Positions 52,458 to 59,526 of a DNA stretch of 64,000 nucleotides are shown here, piece by piece. The notes under the pieces were generated by a model. It had not been told where the DNA came from. It did no database searches and saw nothing but the letters and a program-made list of their open reading frames with translations. The stretch covers positions 1-64,000 of the forward strand of contig JAQTLX010000008.1 in NCBI GenBank assembly GCA_028714695.1, given 5' to 3'. How positions within the stretch are numbered: position 1 is the first letter of the stretch; each line of letters opens with the position of its first letter. A program made the translations under genes and the position numbers. The DNA is from Ignavibacteria bacterium (GTDB lineage: Bacteria > Bacteroidota > Ignavibacteria > Tepidaquicellales > Tepidaquicellaceae).

Positions 52458-53339
52458 ATGAAACCAATTTTAGTTTTACTTCTGACTGTTTCGGTTTTCT
52501 TTTCTTCCTGCGGCAGGTTTTCTAATAAACAAAACGAAGCGAATAAAAACAGTGCGGTCCGGATTGTGTGCGTGTCGAAACAATTGACCGAAATTCTGTT
52601 CGCGCTTGGTCAGGGAGATAAAATTGTCGGAATAGATATCTCAAGTACGTATCCCCCTGAAACAAAGAACATAACTACTGTAGGCTACCATAGAATGCTT
52701 AGCGCAGAAGGAATAATATCCCTGAATCCGACCGTTGTTTATTATAACGGCGGAACTGACGCGTCAATCGGACCCGAAAATGTTATTAAACAATTGAAAG
52801 AAGTCGGAATACCTCTGAAAGAATACCCGGGTACTCCCAATATTGACAGCGCGAAAATCCTTATAAGGCAGATTGCAAAAGAATTCGGCGTGGAAAAAAG
52901 AGGCGAAGAACTATGTAATAAACTCGATGCCGATATGAAGACGGCGCAGGATAGATTAAATACATTTACATCAAAACCGAAAGTGCTCGTTATTCATTAC
53001 GGCAGAGCGTCGAATAATTATTTCGTTATGGGAAATAAAGGCAATCAGAATTCAATGATAGTGTGGGCAGGCGGCGTGAACGCGGCTGATACTTCGGGGT
53101 TCAAACTTCTGAGTTCCGAAGTGATTGCAAAATCACAACCCGAAATAATCCTTGCAACCGATTTCGGGTATGACAGAATGGGAAGCGAAGACAAATTTGT
53201 TGAACTTCCGGGACTCAATCTAACCCCCGCGGCTAAGAATCATAAAATCTACAGAATAGAAGAACACGACCTTATTTATCTCGGTCCGAGAACAGGCGAA
53301 AACGTCCTTAAAATAATGGACTTGATACATAAACAATGA
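52458..53339 (+). CDS. hmuT: Haem ABC transporter substrate-binding lipoprotein HmuT
   Basis: A 293-residue lipoprotein (signal then FSSC near residue 18). It binds haem in the periplasm and gives it to the HmuUV permease. Family signatures are RIVCVSKQLTEILFALG, IDISSTYPPE, VGYHRMLSAEGIISLNPTVV and the C-terminal LGPRTGENVLKIMDLI. Tyrosines such as Y79 are candidate haem ligands. Its stop overlaps the next start by four bases. BtuF-like cobalamin binding is less likely because of the STYPPE and LSAEGI blocks. Confidence 0.87.
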   Translation: MKPILVLLLTVSVFFSSCGRFSNKQNEANKNSAVRIVCVSKQLTEILFALGQGDKIVGIDISSTYPPETKNITTVGYHRMLSAEGIISLNPTVVYYNGGTDASIGPENVIKQLKEVGIPLKEYPGTPNIDSAKILIRQIAKEFGVEKRGEELCNKLDADMKTAQDRLNTFTSKPKVLVIHYGRASNNYFVMGNKGNQNSMIVWAGGVNAADTSGFKLLSSEVIAKSQPEIILATDFGYDRMGSEDKFVELPGLNLTPAAKNHKIYRIEEHDLIYLGPRTGENVLKIMDLIHKQ

Positions 53340-54409
53340 ACTTACTTAAAAAAGTAAAATACAGAACTATATACCTCAGTCTCGGAATTTTGTTGTTCTT
53401 GCTTATAATTTTATCGACGAGAGTAGGCGCAGTAAATATTTCTTATGACCAGATATTTGATTTTTTTCTCGATGCACTGGGCAAGAAACCCAACGGGGAA
53501 ATTAATCCGGTTATAGAGGGATTGTTTTTTCAGATAAGACTTCCGAGAACATTTATGTGTTTCATTGTTGGCGCGGCTTTGTCTGTTTCGGGTGCGCTTA
53601 TGCAGTCGCTTTTCAGAAACCCGATTGTTGAGCCCGGTCTTGTCGGCACTTCGGCCGGCTCGGCATTGGGAGCGTCGTTAATGTTCGTTTTCGGCAAGTC
53701 TGCTTTGTTTGCCGGCGTCGCTTTTCTCGGCGACCTTATGCTGCCTGTTTCCGCTTTCATAGGAGGTTTGATTGCAACAATAATCGTTTATAAATTTTCA
53801 TCCTATTTCGGAAAAGTGAATGTTGCAACAATGATACTGGCCGGCATAGCGGTGAATGCAATGGCTGCGGGAGGAACGGGATTCCTTTCGTATATTGCAA
53901 GAGACCCGCAGGCGCGTTCAATCACGTTCTGGAATCTCGGAACGTTTTCTGGCGCTGACTGGAAGTCGGTCGTAATCGTTTCTGTATCTACCGCAATATG
54001 CTTCAGTCTTACTTTGAGATATTCTAAACAACTTAATGCGCTTCAACTCGGCGAAACGGAAGCAGGTTACCTCGGCTTTAATGTTGAAAGAATGAAAATA
54101 CAATTAATTCTTATCAACACGTTGATGGTTTCGGTAGCAACTTCTATGGTAGGAGTAATCAGTTTTGTTGGTTTGACAGTCCCGCATCTTTTGAGACTTA
54201 TGAAAGGTTCTGACAATAGATATTTAATCATAGGTTCGGGTTTGCTCGGCGCGATTGTAATGATAATCGCGGATATGCTTGCCCGTGTTATTATTGCTCC
54301 CGCTGAAATGCCGATTGGAATTATAACTGCATTTGTAGGTGCGCCTGTGTTTTTGTTTTTATTGTACAAGAACAGAAAGTCCCACGGCAAAGGAGGTTTC
54401 CTTGCTTAA
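53336..54409 (+). CDS. hmuU: Haem ABC transporter permease HmuU (FecCD family)
   Basis: A 357-residue permease with about ten membrane helices. The FecCD-family block LSVSGALMQSLFRNPIVEPG and the coupling-region FVGLTVPHLLRL are present. It starts within the end of hmuT (ATGA overlap) and its end overlaps the ATPase gene, so all three are co-translated. The conserved segment VGVISFVGLTVPH fits a type II importer. Confidence 0.9.
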   Translation: MNLLKKVKYRTIYLSLGILLFLLIILSTRVGAVNISYDQIFDFFLDALGKKPNGEINPVIEGLFFQIRLPRTFMCFIVGAALSVSGALMQSLFRNPIVEPGLVGTSAGSALGASLMFVFGKSALFAGVAFLGDLMLPVSAFIGGLIATIIVYKFSSYFGKVNVATMILAGIAVNAMAAGGTGFLSYIARDPQARSITFWNLGTFSGADWKSVVIVSVSTAICFSLTLRYSKQLNALQLGETEAGYLGFNVERMKIQLILINTLMVSVATSMVGVISFVGLTVPHLLRLMKGSDNRYLIIGSGLLGAIVMIIADMLARVIIAPAEMPIGIITAFVGAPVFLFLLYKNRKSHGKGGFLA

Positions 54410-55196
54410 AGCAAACAATGTTTCTTACTGTATAGATAACCGTTACCTTTTAAAGAATATTTCTCTCGAGTTTAAACCCGGTGAATTCACAGTTATCATG
54501 GGACAAAACGGAGCAGGCAAATCAACATTGCTTAGATTGCTCGCCGGAAGCACAAAAGCAACTGAAGGTGAAATAACACTCTTTGATAAAGATATCAAAA
54601 GTTACAAAGAAATTGAACTCGCCCGTATGCGTGCAGTGCTCTCACAGCATTACGAAATATCATTTCCCGTTACAATACGGGATATAGTTATGATGGGCAG
54701 ATATCCTCACTTTAAAAGCGAACCTGCAAAAAAGGATATCGAGATTATTGATAAAACTCTTACCCTTATGGGAATAGAAAACCTGAAGGAACGAAGTTAC
54801 GATACGCTATCCGGCGGGGAAGCGCAGAAAGTGCAGATGGCGCGTGTACTTTCACAAATCTGGCAGCACGAAAACAACAATGATAAGATTTTGTTTCTTG
54901 ACGAACCTGTTTCGCAACTGGATATTCAGTACCAGTATTTCATGCTTCAGGTCGCGAAAAAATTCACGAAGGAAAATGTAATGGTAATCGCCGTACTGCA
55001 CGATTTGAACCTCGCTCTCGCTTACGCCGATAATATAGTCTTTCTGAAGAATGGCGAACTCGTCAGTAAATTCGATTCCATATATGATATAGATAAGAAA
55101 ATCGTAAATGATGTTTTCAATATAGAAATGGAGAATATTCCAAATCCATTTTCCGACAAACCCCATTTTATAGTGAAAAACGAGATGGGACTATAA
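54402..55196 (+). CDS. hmuV: Haem ABC transporter ATP-binding protein HmuV
   Basis: About 264 residues. The start is a TTG at 54402, five bases after a perfect AGGAGG, rather than an ATG far upstream inside hmuU. Walker A is GQNGAGKST, signature LSGGEAQKVQMARVL, Walker B ILFLDEP, switch HDLNLAL. The long helix between signature and Walker B (SQIWQHENNNDK) is typical of HmuV. The overlap with hmuU is 8 bp. It should energise haem import across the inner membrane. Confidence 0.9.
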   Translation: MLKANNVSYCIDNRYLLKNISLEFKPGEFTVIMGQNGAGKSTLLRLLAGSTKATEGEITLFDKDIKSYKEIELARMRAVLSQHYEISFPVTIRDIVMMGRYPHFKSEPAKKDIEIIDKTLTLMGIENLKERSYDTLSGGEAQKVQMARVLSQIWQHENNNDKILFLDEPVSQLDIQYQYFMLQVAKKFTKENVMVIAVLHDLNLALAYADNIVFLKNGELVSKFDSIYDIDKKIVNDVFNIEMENIPNPFSDKPHFIVKNEMGL

Positions 55197-55293
55197 AATA
55201 TTTATTGCATAAATTATTGCGAATATCTGCTTTTGTACGGCAATTGATATTGAAAAATTTAAAATATTATGTTATTTTTATTTCTTGCACAAA

Positions 55294-55486
55294 GAGCCGT
55301 AGTTGTTTTGGTTAGAACGCCTGACTGTCACTACGGAGAGTCGTCCCGAAAATTCGGGAAGTCTCGTCTCAAAGTTCAAAAATAAATATGGAGCCGTAGT
55401 TGTTTTGGTTAGAACGCCTGACTGTCACTACGGAGAGTCGTCCCGAAAATTCGGGAAGTCTCGTCTCAAAGTTCAAAAATAAATAT
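55294..55486 (+). repeat. Two tandem pseudo-tRNA-Asp units of 97 bp
   Basis: Units at 55294-55390 and 55391-55487 begin GAGCCGTAGTTGTTTTGGTTA and run like tRNA-Asp through the anticodon arm (CGCCTGACTGTCAC). They then differ: the anticodon stem is TACGG instead of TCAGG, and the T-arm is replaced by TCCCGAAAATTCGGGA (55344-55359 and 55441-55456). They end in AAGTCTCGTC, then AAAGTTCAAAAATAAATATG, which leads into the next unit and finally the true tRNA. They cannot fold as tRNA. Confidence 0.85.
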
Positions 55487-55561
55487 GGAGCCGTAGTTCA
55501 GTTTGGTTAGAACGCCTGACTGTCACTCAGGAGGTCGCGAGTTCGAGTCTCGTCGGTTCCG
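55487..55561 (+). tRNA. tRNA-Asp (GTC)
   Basis: A complete cloverleaf of 75 nt: acceptor GGAGCCG/CGGTTCC, D-stem GTTC/GAAC, anticodon stem CCTGA/TCAGG with loop CTGTCAC (anticodon GTC), variable AGGTC, T-stem GCGAG/CTCGT with loop TTCGAGT, discriminator G at 55561. CCA is not encoded. A terminator hairpin follows. It is the only intact copy in the window among many fragments. Confidence 0.93.
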
Positions 55562-55562
55562 C

Positions 55563-55592
55563 AAAATGCCGGGTCATAAGCCCGGCATTTTT
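55563..55592 (+). terminator. Terminator of tRNA-Asp, later copied with the element
   Basis: AAAATGCCGGG pairs with CCCGGCATTTTT around a seven-base loop. Four related copies follow, at about 55678, 55998, 56113 and 56462, each after a tRNA 3'-end fragment. So the hairpin is part of the duplicated segment. Confidence 0.85.
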
Positions 55593-55628
55593 CATTTAAA
55601 ATAATTTTTTAAACCCGGGAATTATAGA

Positions 55629-55679
55629 GACTGACACATAGGTCGTCCCGACTAGTCGGGAAGTCTCGTCGGTTCCGCA
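55629..55679 (+). pseudogene. Degenerate tRNA-Asp 3' half
   Basis: GACTGACACATAGGTCG corresponds to GACTGTCACTCAGGAGGTCG of the tRNA. It is followed by the palindrome TCCCGACTAGTCGGGA (55646-55661), then AGTCTCGTCGGTTCCGC, which is the exact 3' end of the tRNA. It lacks the 5' half. The same fragment recurs at 56064-56114. Confidence 0.8.
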
Positions 55680-55713
55680 AAATGCCGGGTCAAAAACCCG
55701 GCATTTTTTATAT

Positions 55714-55974
55714 ATGCCGTTTTATACTTACATACTAAAAAGTAAAATAAAAGATAAATATTATATAGGATCTTGCGAAGATTTAAGTCTAAGATTAGAA
55801 AGACACAATTCAGGTAATAGCCGCTCAACTAAAGGATATCTTCCATGGGAAGTTGTATATTCGGAAGAATATCAAACTAAATCGGAAGCATTAAAAAGGG
55901 AATATTATATAAAACGTCAAAAAAGCAAAGACTTTATTAAAAGACTGATAAACTCAGGAGGTCGTCCCGACTAG
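55714..55974 (+). CDS. GIY-YIG nuclease, tandem copy 1
   Basis: An 86-residue single-domain GIY-YIG protein: FYTYILKSKIKDKYYIGSC holds the two signature strands, LSLRLERHN the arginine, EALKREYYIKRQKS the glutamate-bearing helix. The last residues (NSGGRPD and stop) are translated from tRNA-derived bases (ACTCAGGAGGTCG) and from the palindrome, whose centre supplies the TAG. Without the palindrome the frame would run on through the tRNA 3' half. There is no ribosome binding site and a terminator lies just upstream, so expression may be low. Presumed role: endonuclease that promotes copying of its own element (inference). Confidence 0.75.
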   Translation: MPFYTYILKSKIKDKYYIGSCEDLSLRLERHNSGNSRSTKGYLPWEVVYSEEYQTKSEALKREYYIKRQKSKDFIKRLINSGGRPD

Positions 55975-56148
55975 TCGGGAAGTCTCGTCGGTTCCGCAAA
56001 ATGCCGGGTCATAAGCCCGGCATTTTTCATTTAAAATAATTTTTTAAACCCGGGAATTATAGAGACTGACACATAGGTCGTCCCGACTAGTCGGGAAGTC
56101 TCGTCGGTTCCGCAAAATGCCGGGTCAAAAACCCGGCATTTTTTATAT

Positions 56149-56409
56149 ATGCCGTTTTATACTTACATACTAAAAAGTAAAATAAAAGATAAATATTATA
56201 TAGGATCTTGCGAAGATTTAAGTCTAAGATTAGAAAGACACAATTCAGGTAATAGCCGCTCAACTAAAGGATATCTTCCATGGGAAGTTGTATATTCGGA
56301 AGAATATCAAACTAAATCGGAAGCATTAAAAAGGGAATATTATATAAAACGTCAAAAAAGCAAAGACTTTATTAAAAGACTGATAAACTCAGGAGGTCGT
56401 CCCGACTAG
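56149..56409 (+). CDS. GIY-YIG nuclease, tandem copy 2 (identical)
   Basis: The protein is identical to copy 1 over all 86 residues, and the surrounding DNA is essentially identical too, so this is a very recent duplication. It again ends in tRNA-derived bases and the palindrome. After this copy the junction is more altered: a second palindrome TCCCGATATATCGGAA (56414-56429) and CACTGACTGCGGCAGGTAGG precede the next terminator. Confidence 0.75.
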   Translation: MPFYTYILKSKIKDKYYIGSCEDLSLRLERHNSGNSRSTKGYLPWEVVYSEEYQTKSEALKREYYIKRQKSKDFIKRLINSGGRPD

Positions 56410-56497
56410 TCGGTCCCGATATATCGGAATCGTCGGTTCACTGACTGCGGCAGGTAGGCGCAAAACGCCGGGTCAAAAACCCGGCATTTTTTATATA

Positions 56498-56607
56498 TGC
56501 CGTTTTATACTTACATACTAAAAAGTAAAATAAAAGATAAATAGTATATAGAATCTTGCGAAGATTTAAGTCTAAGATTAGAAAGACACAATTCAGGTAA
56601 TAGCCGC
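56498..56607 (+). pseudogene. Truncated third GIY-YIG copy
   Basis: The first 36 or so codons of the same gene (ATGCCGTTTTATACTTACAT to AATAGCCGC) are present with two base changes (TAGTATATAGAATC instead of TATTATATAGGATC), then homology stops at CATCTTTTAATAAG. The rest, with the catalytic glutamate, is lost. Confidence 0.85.
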
Positions 56608-56681
56608 CATCTTTTAATAAGTTGCTGTGAAATTTAAATCCGTCATTCGGTTCAAATGAACCTTATCTCAAACGGATGAAC

Positions 56682-57566
56682 TTACTCAAGGAACTTCATG
56701 TCTTCTTCGCTTAATTCTATCTCGGTGGATTTTAAATTCTCTTCAAAATGCTTTAATGAAGAAGTGCCGGGTATTGGCAAAATCCACGGAGAACGATGCA
56801 GTAACCATGCTAAGTTTATTTGTGCATCGGTAGCGTTATATTTCTCGGCAATAATTGAAATCCTTTCATCTTTCTTGGGTATCGATAAAAATAAAGAGAA
56901 GAATGGCAATAATGGTATTTTACTTTGCTCACACATTGCAAGCACTTCTTCTCCTCCCCTGGTTTCATCTGCCGTCATTAAATTTAATGTTGTGCGCTGG
57001 CTGTGTCCATACAAATTTTCAACCGTGACAATATTTCCCATAGTCATTGCTATTTGCAATTCTTCAGGTGTGACGTTACTAACTCCTATATGTAAAATCT
57101 TTCCTTCTTTCTGCATTTCAAACATTGCCTGCATGGATTCTTTAAACGGTACATCGCTGCCGGCTAATACCCTGAAATGAACGAGTGCTATCTGTTCCAA
57201 TTTAAGAGTACGCAAATTCTTATCAATGCTGCTTTGTAAATTTTCCGGACGATTAAACGGAATCCAACTTTTATCCGGTTTCCTCGCTCCTCCCACTTTA
57301 GTGCATATCACAAGATCCTTAGGATATGGATAAAGCGCTTCTGCTATCAGCCTGTTTGTTACATCATCTCCATAGTAATCGGCTGTATCTATCAAGTTGA
57401 TGCCGCTTTTAACGCATTGTTTTAATATTTGCAAAGCCTCGCCGCGGTCCGCAGGTTCACCCCAAATTCCCTCACCGGTCAGATGCATTGTGCCGTATCC
57501 GAAACGTCTAACTTTTAAAGGATTAATACTTTCTTCCGCAATTATAATTTCTTCTGTTTCCCTCAA
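56682..57566 (-). CDS. Aldo/keto reductase
   Basis: A 294-residue NADPH-dependent oxidoreductase of the AKR superfamily. The catalytic tetrad is visible: Asp and Tyr in LIDTADYYGDD, Lys in VICTKVGG, His in ALVHFRVLA. The C-terminal cofactor loop PIPGTSSLKHFEENL is typical. The substrate is unknown; members reduce aldehydes and ketones. It begins an accessory cluster of reductases on the minus strand, 190 bp from the next. Confidence 0.88.
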   Translation of the reverse strand: MRETEEIIIAEESINPLKVRRFGYGTMHLTGEGIWGEPADRGEALQILKQCVKSGINLIDTADYYGDDVTNRLIAEALYPYPKDLVICTKVGGARKPDKSWIPFNRPENLQSSIDKNLRTLKLEQIALVHFRVLAGSDVPFKESMQAMFEMQKEGKILHIGVSNVTPEELQIAMTMGNIVTVENLYGHSQRTTLNLMTADETRGGEEVLAMCEQSKIPLLPFFSLFLSIPKKDERISIIAEKYNATDAQINLAWLLHRSPWILPIPGTSSLKHFEENLKSTEIELSEEDMKFLE

Positions 57567-57756
57567 ATTGATTTTATTTATATTTAATTAATGGTCGTTT
57601 ATTTATAAAACATAGATAAGGCATTTAGAATTCACGCGGCACTAAACAACGAATGTCCATCTATGATTCTTGCCCGAATGTGAATTCTCAATTTCTAAGT
57701 TCTGTATTCATTTGATATCTTATCCTGTTAAAATGTTGTAAGTTATACTGAAAAAT

Positions 57757-58473
57757 TTACCAGGGGACTTCCCCTGCATCATCAAAAAATCCTCCGGTCG
57801 GTCCATTTTTGTCCAATGTCGCAAGCCTTACGATTACTACTGCTGCTTGTTGGACAGTCCGTATGCCTTTACCACCGTTCATTTCCGTTGCCGTAAAACC
57901 AGGGGCGGCTGAGTTGATTTTAAGAGGCGTCTCTTTGAATTCTCTTGCAAATTGTATTGTAAGTGCATTTAAGGCTGTTTTAGAACTGTTATAAGCGAGT
58001 TGGAGTAAGCTTGTAGAATTCAAATTACCGTTTCTTGACAAAGATCCTTGCCCGCTTGATACATTAACAATCCTCCCGCCTTCAGTTGATTTATTAAGTA
58101 ATGGTAACATCGTTTTGGTCACTGCAAATACACCGAAAAAATTTGTATCAAAGGTTTGTTTCAACGCAGAAAGATCAATCTGACTTGGTGGTATTCCATT
58201 ATCCATATAAATACCCGAATTATTTATTAATGCATCAAGCGAACCGTATTCCTTTTCAATAAATCCGGCCGCGGTTCTTATTGTTTCTATATTCGTAACG
58301 TCCAGTAAAATAAATTTCGCGTTTATATCTTCATCTTTTAATATAATCTCGGCATATCTGCCTCTTACTTCATTCCTTGAACCAAGAAGAACCATATAGC
58401 CGATTCTCCCCAACTGCCTTGCTGTTTCGAAACCAATTCCTTTGTTTGCTCCTGTGATTAAAACAGTTTTCAT
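57757..58473 (-). CDS. Short-chain dehydrogenase/reductase
   Basis: A 238-residue SDR. The NAD(P)-binding motif is TGANKGIGFE at residues 7-16, then NNSGIY (NNAG-type), VNVSSGQGS with the catalytic Ser, and YNSSKTALN with Tyr and Lys of the active site. The C-terminus (GPTGGFFDDAGEVPW) closely matches the end of the SDR at 59527, so they belong to the same subfamily. It lies 22 bp downstream of the NmrA-like gene and is likely co-transcribed. Confidence 0.88.
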   Translation of the reverse strand: MKTVLITGANKGIGFETARQLGRIGYMVLLGSRNEVRGRYAEIILKDEDINAKFILLDVTNIETIRTAAGFIEKEYGSLDALINNSGIYMDNGIPPSQIDLSALKQTFDTNFFGVFAVTKTMLPLLNKSTEGGRIVNVSSGQGSLSRNGNLNSTSLLQLAYNSSKTALNALTIQFAREFKETPLKINSAAPGFTATEMNGGKGIRTVQQAAVVIVRLATLDKNGPTGGFFDDAGEVPW

Positions 58474-58495
58474 ATCTTATACTAAAATTTGTAAT

Positions 58496-59398
58496 TTATT
58501 GCTGATTATATACAACAGCAAATTCTTTTGCAAAATCTTTCAGTTTTATTTTTCCTAATATTGGCTTGTTACGATTATAATCTTCGTACAAAATTCCGTT
58601 TCGTCCGCTTGCATTCATTTCCACAAAACCTTTGGCAACTTGCGGAGCCATGCCGGATGCTATCATACCGTTAAGCATTTGCTCATCAGAAATAACGAGC
58701 CATCTCAAATCCGGTTTACCGATAGCTTCGCCTAATATTTTTACTAATTCGTTGGGTGAAACTTCATCGCTCGCTATATACCGAACTGTTCTGCCGTTAA
58801 AAGGTTTTTCAATTTCTTCTGCTATAACGGACGCAATATCCAAAGGTGAAACCCAGGGATCTTTTTCATCGCCGCCATAGTTTTGAATGATGGCGCCTTG
58901 TGTTTTTATGGTTTGTATGAAAGCAAACATATTGTAGTAAAAACCGACTGGACGCATAAATTTAATGGAAACATCTTTCGGCAGTTGCTTCAAAATGGTT
59001 CCCGTATTGTAATGAAAAGCAAGATTTCCATTACCTTTGTCTGTGTGGGCGCCTATACTGCTGAGATGAACCACGCGCTTTACACCCGATCGTTCGAGAG
59101 ATTGTTTGTAATTATTGCCAATCTTGTTAATAGCATCAATGATGTCAAAATTTTGGTCAAAGAAACTGCTAACGTCAAGAGCTTCCATAACATAAACTAT
59201 CTCGGCGCCTTTGAAAGCCTCCGTTAGAAAATCAGCGTCTTCCATTGTTCCAATGGCAGCCTTAGCGCCAAGTGCCTCAATATCTTTTTGTCTTTTGGTC
59301 TTACTGCTGATGACCGTGACCGAATGACCCTTGCTAACCAATTCTTCGGTAAGCGGCTTGCTGATGTTTCCTAACGAACCTGTTACTGTAATTTTCAT
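58496..59398 (-). CDS. NmrA-like NAD(P)-binding protein
   Basis: A 300-residue atypical SDR of the NmrA/quinone reductase type. The nucleotide-binding loop reads TGSLGNISKPL (GxxGxxG-like). VHLSSIGAHTDKGN and FMRPVGFYYNMF are family blocks; the catalytic tyrosine of classical SDRs is not obvious. Relatives act as redox sensors or NADPH-dependent reductases. A deleted paralogue lies at 60328-60564. Confidence 0.82.
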   Translation of the reverse strand: MKITVTGSLGNISKPLTEELVSKGHSVTVISSKTKRQKDIEALGAKAAIGTMEDADFLTEAFKGAEIVYVMEALDVSSFFDQNFDIIDAINKIGNNYKQSLERSGVKRVVHLSSIGAHTDKGNGNLAFHYNTGTILKQLPKDVSIKFMRPVGFYYNMFAFIQTIKTQGAIIQNYGGDEKDPWVSPLDIASVIAEEIEKPFNGRTVRYIASDEVSPNELVKILGEAIGKPDLRWLVISDEQMLNGMIASGMAPQVAKGFVEMNASGRNGILYEDYNRNKPILGKIKLKDFAKEFAVVYNQQ

Positions 59399-59526
59399 AA
59401 TTCTATTCTTTATAATTTGCTTAAGTTTTGATTTTAGTCCATTTACAAAATCCGTCTGTCTTGCTTTGTCCGGTCCTGCATTTCTTTTGTGTTGCCAATC
59501 GTTGAAAAACGTGCTGCTGTTTCATA

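Follow-up and report, generated by a model that had tools for sequence, protein, structure and literature searches.

A subfamily of small GIY-YIG nuclease genes nested beside duplicated pieces of tRNA genes, apparently as selfish elements

A gene for an 86-residue GIY-YIG nuclease is embedded among duplicated parts of an essential tRNA-Asp gene in an Ignavibacteria bacterium, and sampling of about 150 genomes showed members of the same subfamily in this arrangement at some 33 kinds of tRNA gene, apparently as a selfish element that lives in essential RNA genes while leaving one working copy. The locus lies in a 64,000-nucleotide stretch of DNA, referred to here as the window (assembly GCA_028714695.1, contig JAQTLX010000008.1, positions 1 to 64,000 of the forward strand), and all of the features of the locus listed below are on the plus strand. 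We interpret these genes, with reasonable though not complete confidence, as free-standing, homing-like selfish nucleases that are inserted in an essential RNA gene at a lineage-specific point and that carry, or generate by duplication, the rest of that gene, so that one complete tRNA remains and a leftover half lies on the far side of the nuclease gene. That the protein cuts the empty tRNA gene, and that repair from an occupied allele spreads it, are inferred from sequence comparison alone.

The window contains one intact tRNA-Asp(GTC) at 55487-55562 (68.9 bits), the only complete one found in this genome, which is followed directly by a terminator hairpin (55563-55591). Two GIY-YIG open-reading frames follow at 55714-55974 and 56149-56409, both of 86 residues and identical to each other (Pfam PF01541, E=1.6e-17), and a third at 56497-56610 is truncated (38 residues, 92%). 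The 3'-half block ACTCAGGAGGTCG recurs at 55525, 55952, and 56387, a spacing of 427 and 435 in which the 8-base difference is a 16-base palindrome replacing 8 bases of the T-arm. Gene 1 runs into a tRNA-Asp 3' half at 55952-55997 that begins in the anticodon loop (palindrome at 55965-55980) and is followed by a copy of the terminator hairpin (55998-56026), while gene 2 runs into a more degenerate half at 56387-56461 with two overlapping palindromes (56400-56415 and 56414-56429), also followed by a copy of the terminator (56462-56490). In each unit, a second, degenerate 3' half precedes the nuclease gene, at 55630-55678 (palindrome at 55646-55661) and 56065-56113 (palindrome at 56081-56096), again with copies of the terminator hairpin at 55679-55707 and 56114-56142. 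This organization is far more than chance, as TCCCGANNNNTCGGGA with up to 2 mismatches occurs 13 times in the window against 1.8 expected, and the 17-mer GTCCCGANNNNTCGGGA has 18 hits in the genome against 0 for its backward-read control.

A sequence-only reading of this locus had proposed that a GIY-YIG element inserts in the anticodon/T-arm side of tRNA-Asp and carries a replacement 3' half, and its description of the tandem units was confirmed with three corrections. Every downstream half carries the palindrome TCCCGACTAGTCGGGA in its T-arm, and the stop codon TAG of the nuclease gene lies in that palindrome, so the C-terminus ...NSGGRPD comes from tRNA half plus hairpin. Two identical 97-bp tandem pseudo-tRNA-Asp copies carrying a sister palindrome, TCCCGAAAATTCGGGA, lie upstream of the intact tRNA at 55294-55390 (palindrome at 55344-55359; the copy is an 88% match to tRNA positions 2-51) and 55391-55487 (palindrome at 55441-55456), and these had not been described. 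The statement that the element has no terminal repeats is only partly right, because the tRNA half is itself a direct repeat. The only other relative in the 3.85-Mb genome sits directly after tRNA-Cys, again in tandem and again followed by tRNA-Cys 3' halves, this time with the palindrome TCCGCCTCGGCGGA.

To test whether this association is general, loci encoding related proteins were fetched from 29 genomes of the family and 118 genomes of the phylum Bacteroidota and scanned with ARAGORN. Of 151 distinct genes from the phylum sample, 92 have a same-strand tRNA within 500 bp upstream and 20 more downstream, while none was counted as having only an antisense one. Assuming about 45 tRNAs in 3.6 Mb, a random gene would have a same-strand tRNA within 160 bp upstream roughly once in 1000. 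A further 14 genes have tRNA fragments only, and three sit at RNase P RNA or tmRNA; over all samples together 33 isoacceptors are used. The phylum loci are the best-scoring matches to an alignment built from the window's family, a sampling caveat, but 20 weaker relatives of another GIY-YIG subfamily in one genus have no tRNA in the locus, while the tRNA-type members in the same genomes do, and Patescibacteria relatives in a sample of named genomes mostly show none. The association is confined to parts of the protein tree (23 state changes against 65.6 +/- 3.6 for shuffled labels). A chance local duplication was rejected, since the association recurs in 91 of 109 sampled loci with a complete tRNA and 12 more with tRNA fragments only. 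A metagenome assembly artifact was rejected as a general cause, as single-contig genomes and a named isolate, Litoribacter ruber, show the same arrangement, although there are incomplete metagenome assemblies with repeats and N runs do occur inside some arrays. In the tmRNA case, two tandem GIY-YIG copies with their own hairpins lie directly after tmRNA, without tmRNA fragments.

Of 87 phylum genes with a tRNA within 160 bp, 74 have a piece of that same tRNA on their other side. In the common form the order is complete tRNA, nuclease, 3' part, while in a minority (Ser, Leu, Arg, and some others) it is 5' part, nuclease, complete tRNA. In the common form, the copied piece begins between -12 and +6 nt of the end of the nuclease stop codon in 40 of 84 cases, with a sharp peak at -4 to +1, indicating that the right edge of the element is usually the stop codon itself. 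The position in the tRNA at which the piece begins varies, mostly from 3 to about 58, and tends to recur for one tRNA type, and thus the insertion point is not always on the anticodon/T-arm side and a fixed cut site at the anticodon was rejected. In one locus, the nuclease ORF reads about 50 nt into the following complete tRNA-Leu and ends in ...MAELVDALDSKSSGT, a translated tRNA 5' half. In 27 of 29 tandem loci that hold a tRNA, no tRNA isoacceptor is doubled while the nuclease gene is. One array has eight detected tandem nuclease copies at about 364-bp spacing, each with a tRNA-Met 3' half carrying TCCGCC hairpins, away from any complete tRNA.

Occupied and empty alleles were found within one genus. 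For tRNA-Ser(UGA) in a genus of eight sampled species, seven are empty, and in the eighth the same tRNA is followed by the ATG of the nuclease gene, then the leftover ...aaggggttc, a 22-base hairpin, and gaatccctcactctccgc, and then the flank attttttaaatagccc that follows the tRNA in the empty species, so that the empty flank resumes exactly after the leftover half. The closest sampled relatives of that nuclease all sit at tRNA-Ser in other genomes. The tRNA is identical in this and five of the empty species, and import of a foreign half, as opposed to local duplication, is therefore not shown. RNase P RNA is occupied in three of eight species of this genus, where the ORF lies between the arms of a 19-24 base perfect inverted repeat at what appears, by comparison with the empty species, to be the position of the P3 stem-loop, with stems that differ between two lineages yet stay complementary. 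For tRNA-Asp in the window's family, some species are occupied, sister species of the same genus show scars, and others are empty, while others appear to host large integrase-type islands in the same tRNA, with 3' halves (positions about 29-76) 10-35 kb away and sometimes with a GIY-YIG gene beyond the distal half; the identity of these islands is inferred from sequence.

Given the range of tRNAs used, we asked whether target identity follows protein lineage. On a tree of 148 proteins built from the first 66 residues only, so that tRNA-derived tails could not contribute, the tRNA amino acid changes 50 times against 105.7 +/- 2.3 for shuffled labels, and 42 times against 85.7 +/- 2.8 when labels are shuffled only within host families. 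The nearest relative in a different host family has the same tRNA amino acid in 68 of 135 cases, where chance is about 9%. This is as expected if each lineage recognizes its tRNA gene as a target, but does not by itself prove horizontal movement, since the tree is also compatible with largely vertical inheritance within each tRNA type plus losses (host-family changes are 54 where about 62 would be expected for clean vertical inheritance inside tRNA types). No relative was found in phages, plasmids, or viral contigs, so no vector is known.

The protein is maintained by selection. The median dN/dS is 0.16 over 238 pairs, all below 1, and 0.15 between tandem copies; these pairs are not independent, and 51 disjoint pairs give 0.22. 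Residues Y6, Y17, G19, R27, H31, and E63, which probably correspond to the catalytic positions of I-TevI and SLX1, are 97-100% conserved in 148 proteins. The closest solved relatives by profile are UPF0213 proteins (BH0048, E=1e-15) and SLX1 (E=2e-8), with a phmmer match to 1ZG2 at E=2e-6, although the present proteins consist of a single short domain. At about 80-90 residues they lack the separate DNA-binding domain usual in homing endonucleases such as I-TevI or Seg proteins, and the NCBIfam group I intron endonuclease model scored far below its cut-off (21.4 versus 56.05 bits).

In the spare tRNA copies, 31 clean inserts, in which no tRNA base is lost, were found. These cluster between GGTTC and GAATCC in the T-loop, at the anticodon-loop center, and in the D-loop, and sit at local dyad centers more than random positions of the same tRNAs do (mean score 2.87 against 1.64 +/- 0.19, with none of 20000 draws as high). 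Common forms are TCCCGA-N4-TCGGGA and a 22-base pair of mini-hairpins. These hairpins may mark repaired nuclease cuts, may remove the target in the spare copy, or may simply be tolerated in dead copies; the functional tRNA would not tolerate them, so survivorship contributes in any case.

The anatomy resembles two known systems. Mobile endonuclease ORFs of fungal mitochondria (Allomyces, Glomus) replace the 3' end of atp6, atp9, cox2, or nad3 and leave the native end beyond the insertion (PMC3630166), and one of these is GIY-YIG; they are mostly LAGLIDADG enzymes in mitochondrial protein genes, and the inserted end there is foreign, while tRNAs are too conserved to tell whether this holds here. 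Phage T4/T6 SegB is a free-standing GIY-YIG homing endonuclease encoded in tRNA gene regions, associated with many isotypes, with tandem repeats that include a tRNA and with microhomology between the 3' end of segB and the tRNA (PMC2988022, PMC13096335). The genes described here differ from SegB in being chromosomal, in belonging to a different GIY-YIG branch, in abutting a piece of the tRNA where the SegB study counted tRNAs within 1 kb, and in repeating the nuclease and a dead half where SegB arrays repeat the whole tRNA; hairpin inserts were not mentioned in the passages on SegB that were consulted. No earlier description of the present arrangement was found among open-licence papers. If our interpretation is right, a large and apparently undescribed group of bacterial nucleases, named in family libraries only as GIY-YIG proteins, are selfish genes that use essential RNA genes as safe harbors by rebuilding them, giving a bacterial chromosomal counterpart to both systems, a large natural set of nucleases sorted by target tRNA that would be useful for learning GIY-YIG specificity, and a source for tRNA fragments and palindromic repeats that confuse annotation.

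Other explanations were considered and each seems unlikely. The least improbable is a domesticated host nuclease that happens to be encoded in tRNA operons, for example acting on tRNA or on DNA structures at tRNA genes, with tRNA halves left by ordinary tandem duplication. Strong purifying selection, including between tandem copies, and the co-orientation with the tRNA, which could allow co-transcription, are consistent with this view, as are Pelagibacter (SAR11) genomes that carry a relative 9-21 bp after tRNA-Glu without any tRNA fragment, an older or different form of the association. However, patchy occupancy inside a genus with scars in sister species, the use of some 33 isoacceptors plus rnpB and tmRNA, and tRNA pieces that begin exactly at the stop codon at many different tRNA positions argue against it. 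It must also be said that how an intact tRNA in an occupied allele would escape re-cutting under the homing interpretation is unexplained. A miniature tRNA island moved by tyrosine recombinases is more doubtful still. A 3' half as a direct repeat is the classical att signature, the tRNA is kept intact as in such islands, and larger islands of this kind appear to sit at tRNA-Asp in other members of the family, but no integrase was noticed among the ORFs listed in 53000-59500, where the flanking ORFs read as an ABC transporter ATPase and an aldo/keto reductase; in addition, the unit is only about 430 bp, copy boundaries range mostly from position 3 to 58 instead of one crossover core, 5'-half versions exist, and the rnpB case has no such duplication but sits inside a stem-loop.

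Amplification of tRNA dosage against tRNA-cutting defense or toxins was suggested by SegB, which amplifies a repeat of tRNA-Tyr plus truncated segB to escape Septu (PMC13096335), and 36 tandem loci were seen here, but since the complete tRNA stays single in nearly all arrays that hold one, this reading is improbable. Equally improbable is that the hairpin-bearing copies are the functional part, as processed RNA signals or decoys, and that the nuclease acts on RNA hairpins. The hairpins do sit at loop centers of tRNA arms, and in rnpB the ORF sits at the tip of a stem that is kept complementary in two lineages, but the leftover halves degenerate, differ between copies in one array, and often lack the 5' half. 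A more far-reaching version of our own interpretation, which we regard as speculative and less likely than not, is that these genes form a new class of chromosomal selfish element parasitizing essential structured-RNA genes (tRNA, RNase P RNA, tmRNA), in which an SLX1-like, structure-specific nuclease would recognize hairpins extruded from the arms of its cognate RNA gene and open them at the tip, with repair then inserting either the nuclease gene or short palindromic filler at the dyad center, which would also be one source of the short palindromic repeats in these genomes.

The hairpins also resemble the REP/palindromic repeats moved by Y1 (RAYT) transposases in being short, GC-rich, and dispersed in the genome, but here they concentrate in spare tRNA copies, and no Y1 gene was noticed among the ORFs listed near the element in the window. 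The hairpin does occur outside tRNA copies, as three 138-bp tandem units with TCCCGATATATCGGGA but no noticed tRNA similarity are present at G000 C3:148733-149025 (our genome and contig designation). Finally, one GIY-YIG gene in the wider sample appears to be inserted within what reads, from the translated flanks, as a Y1/RAYT transposase gene, and another within what reads as a 23S-IVS four-helix protein gene.
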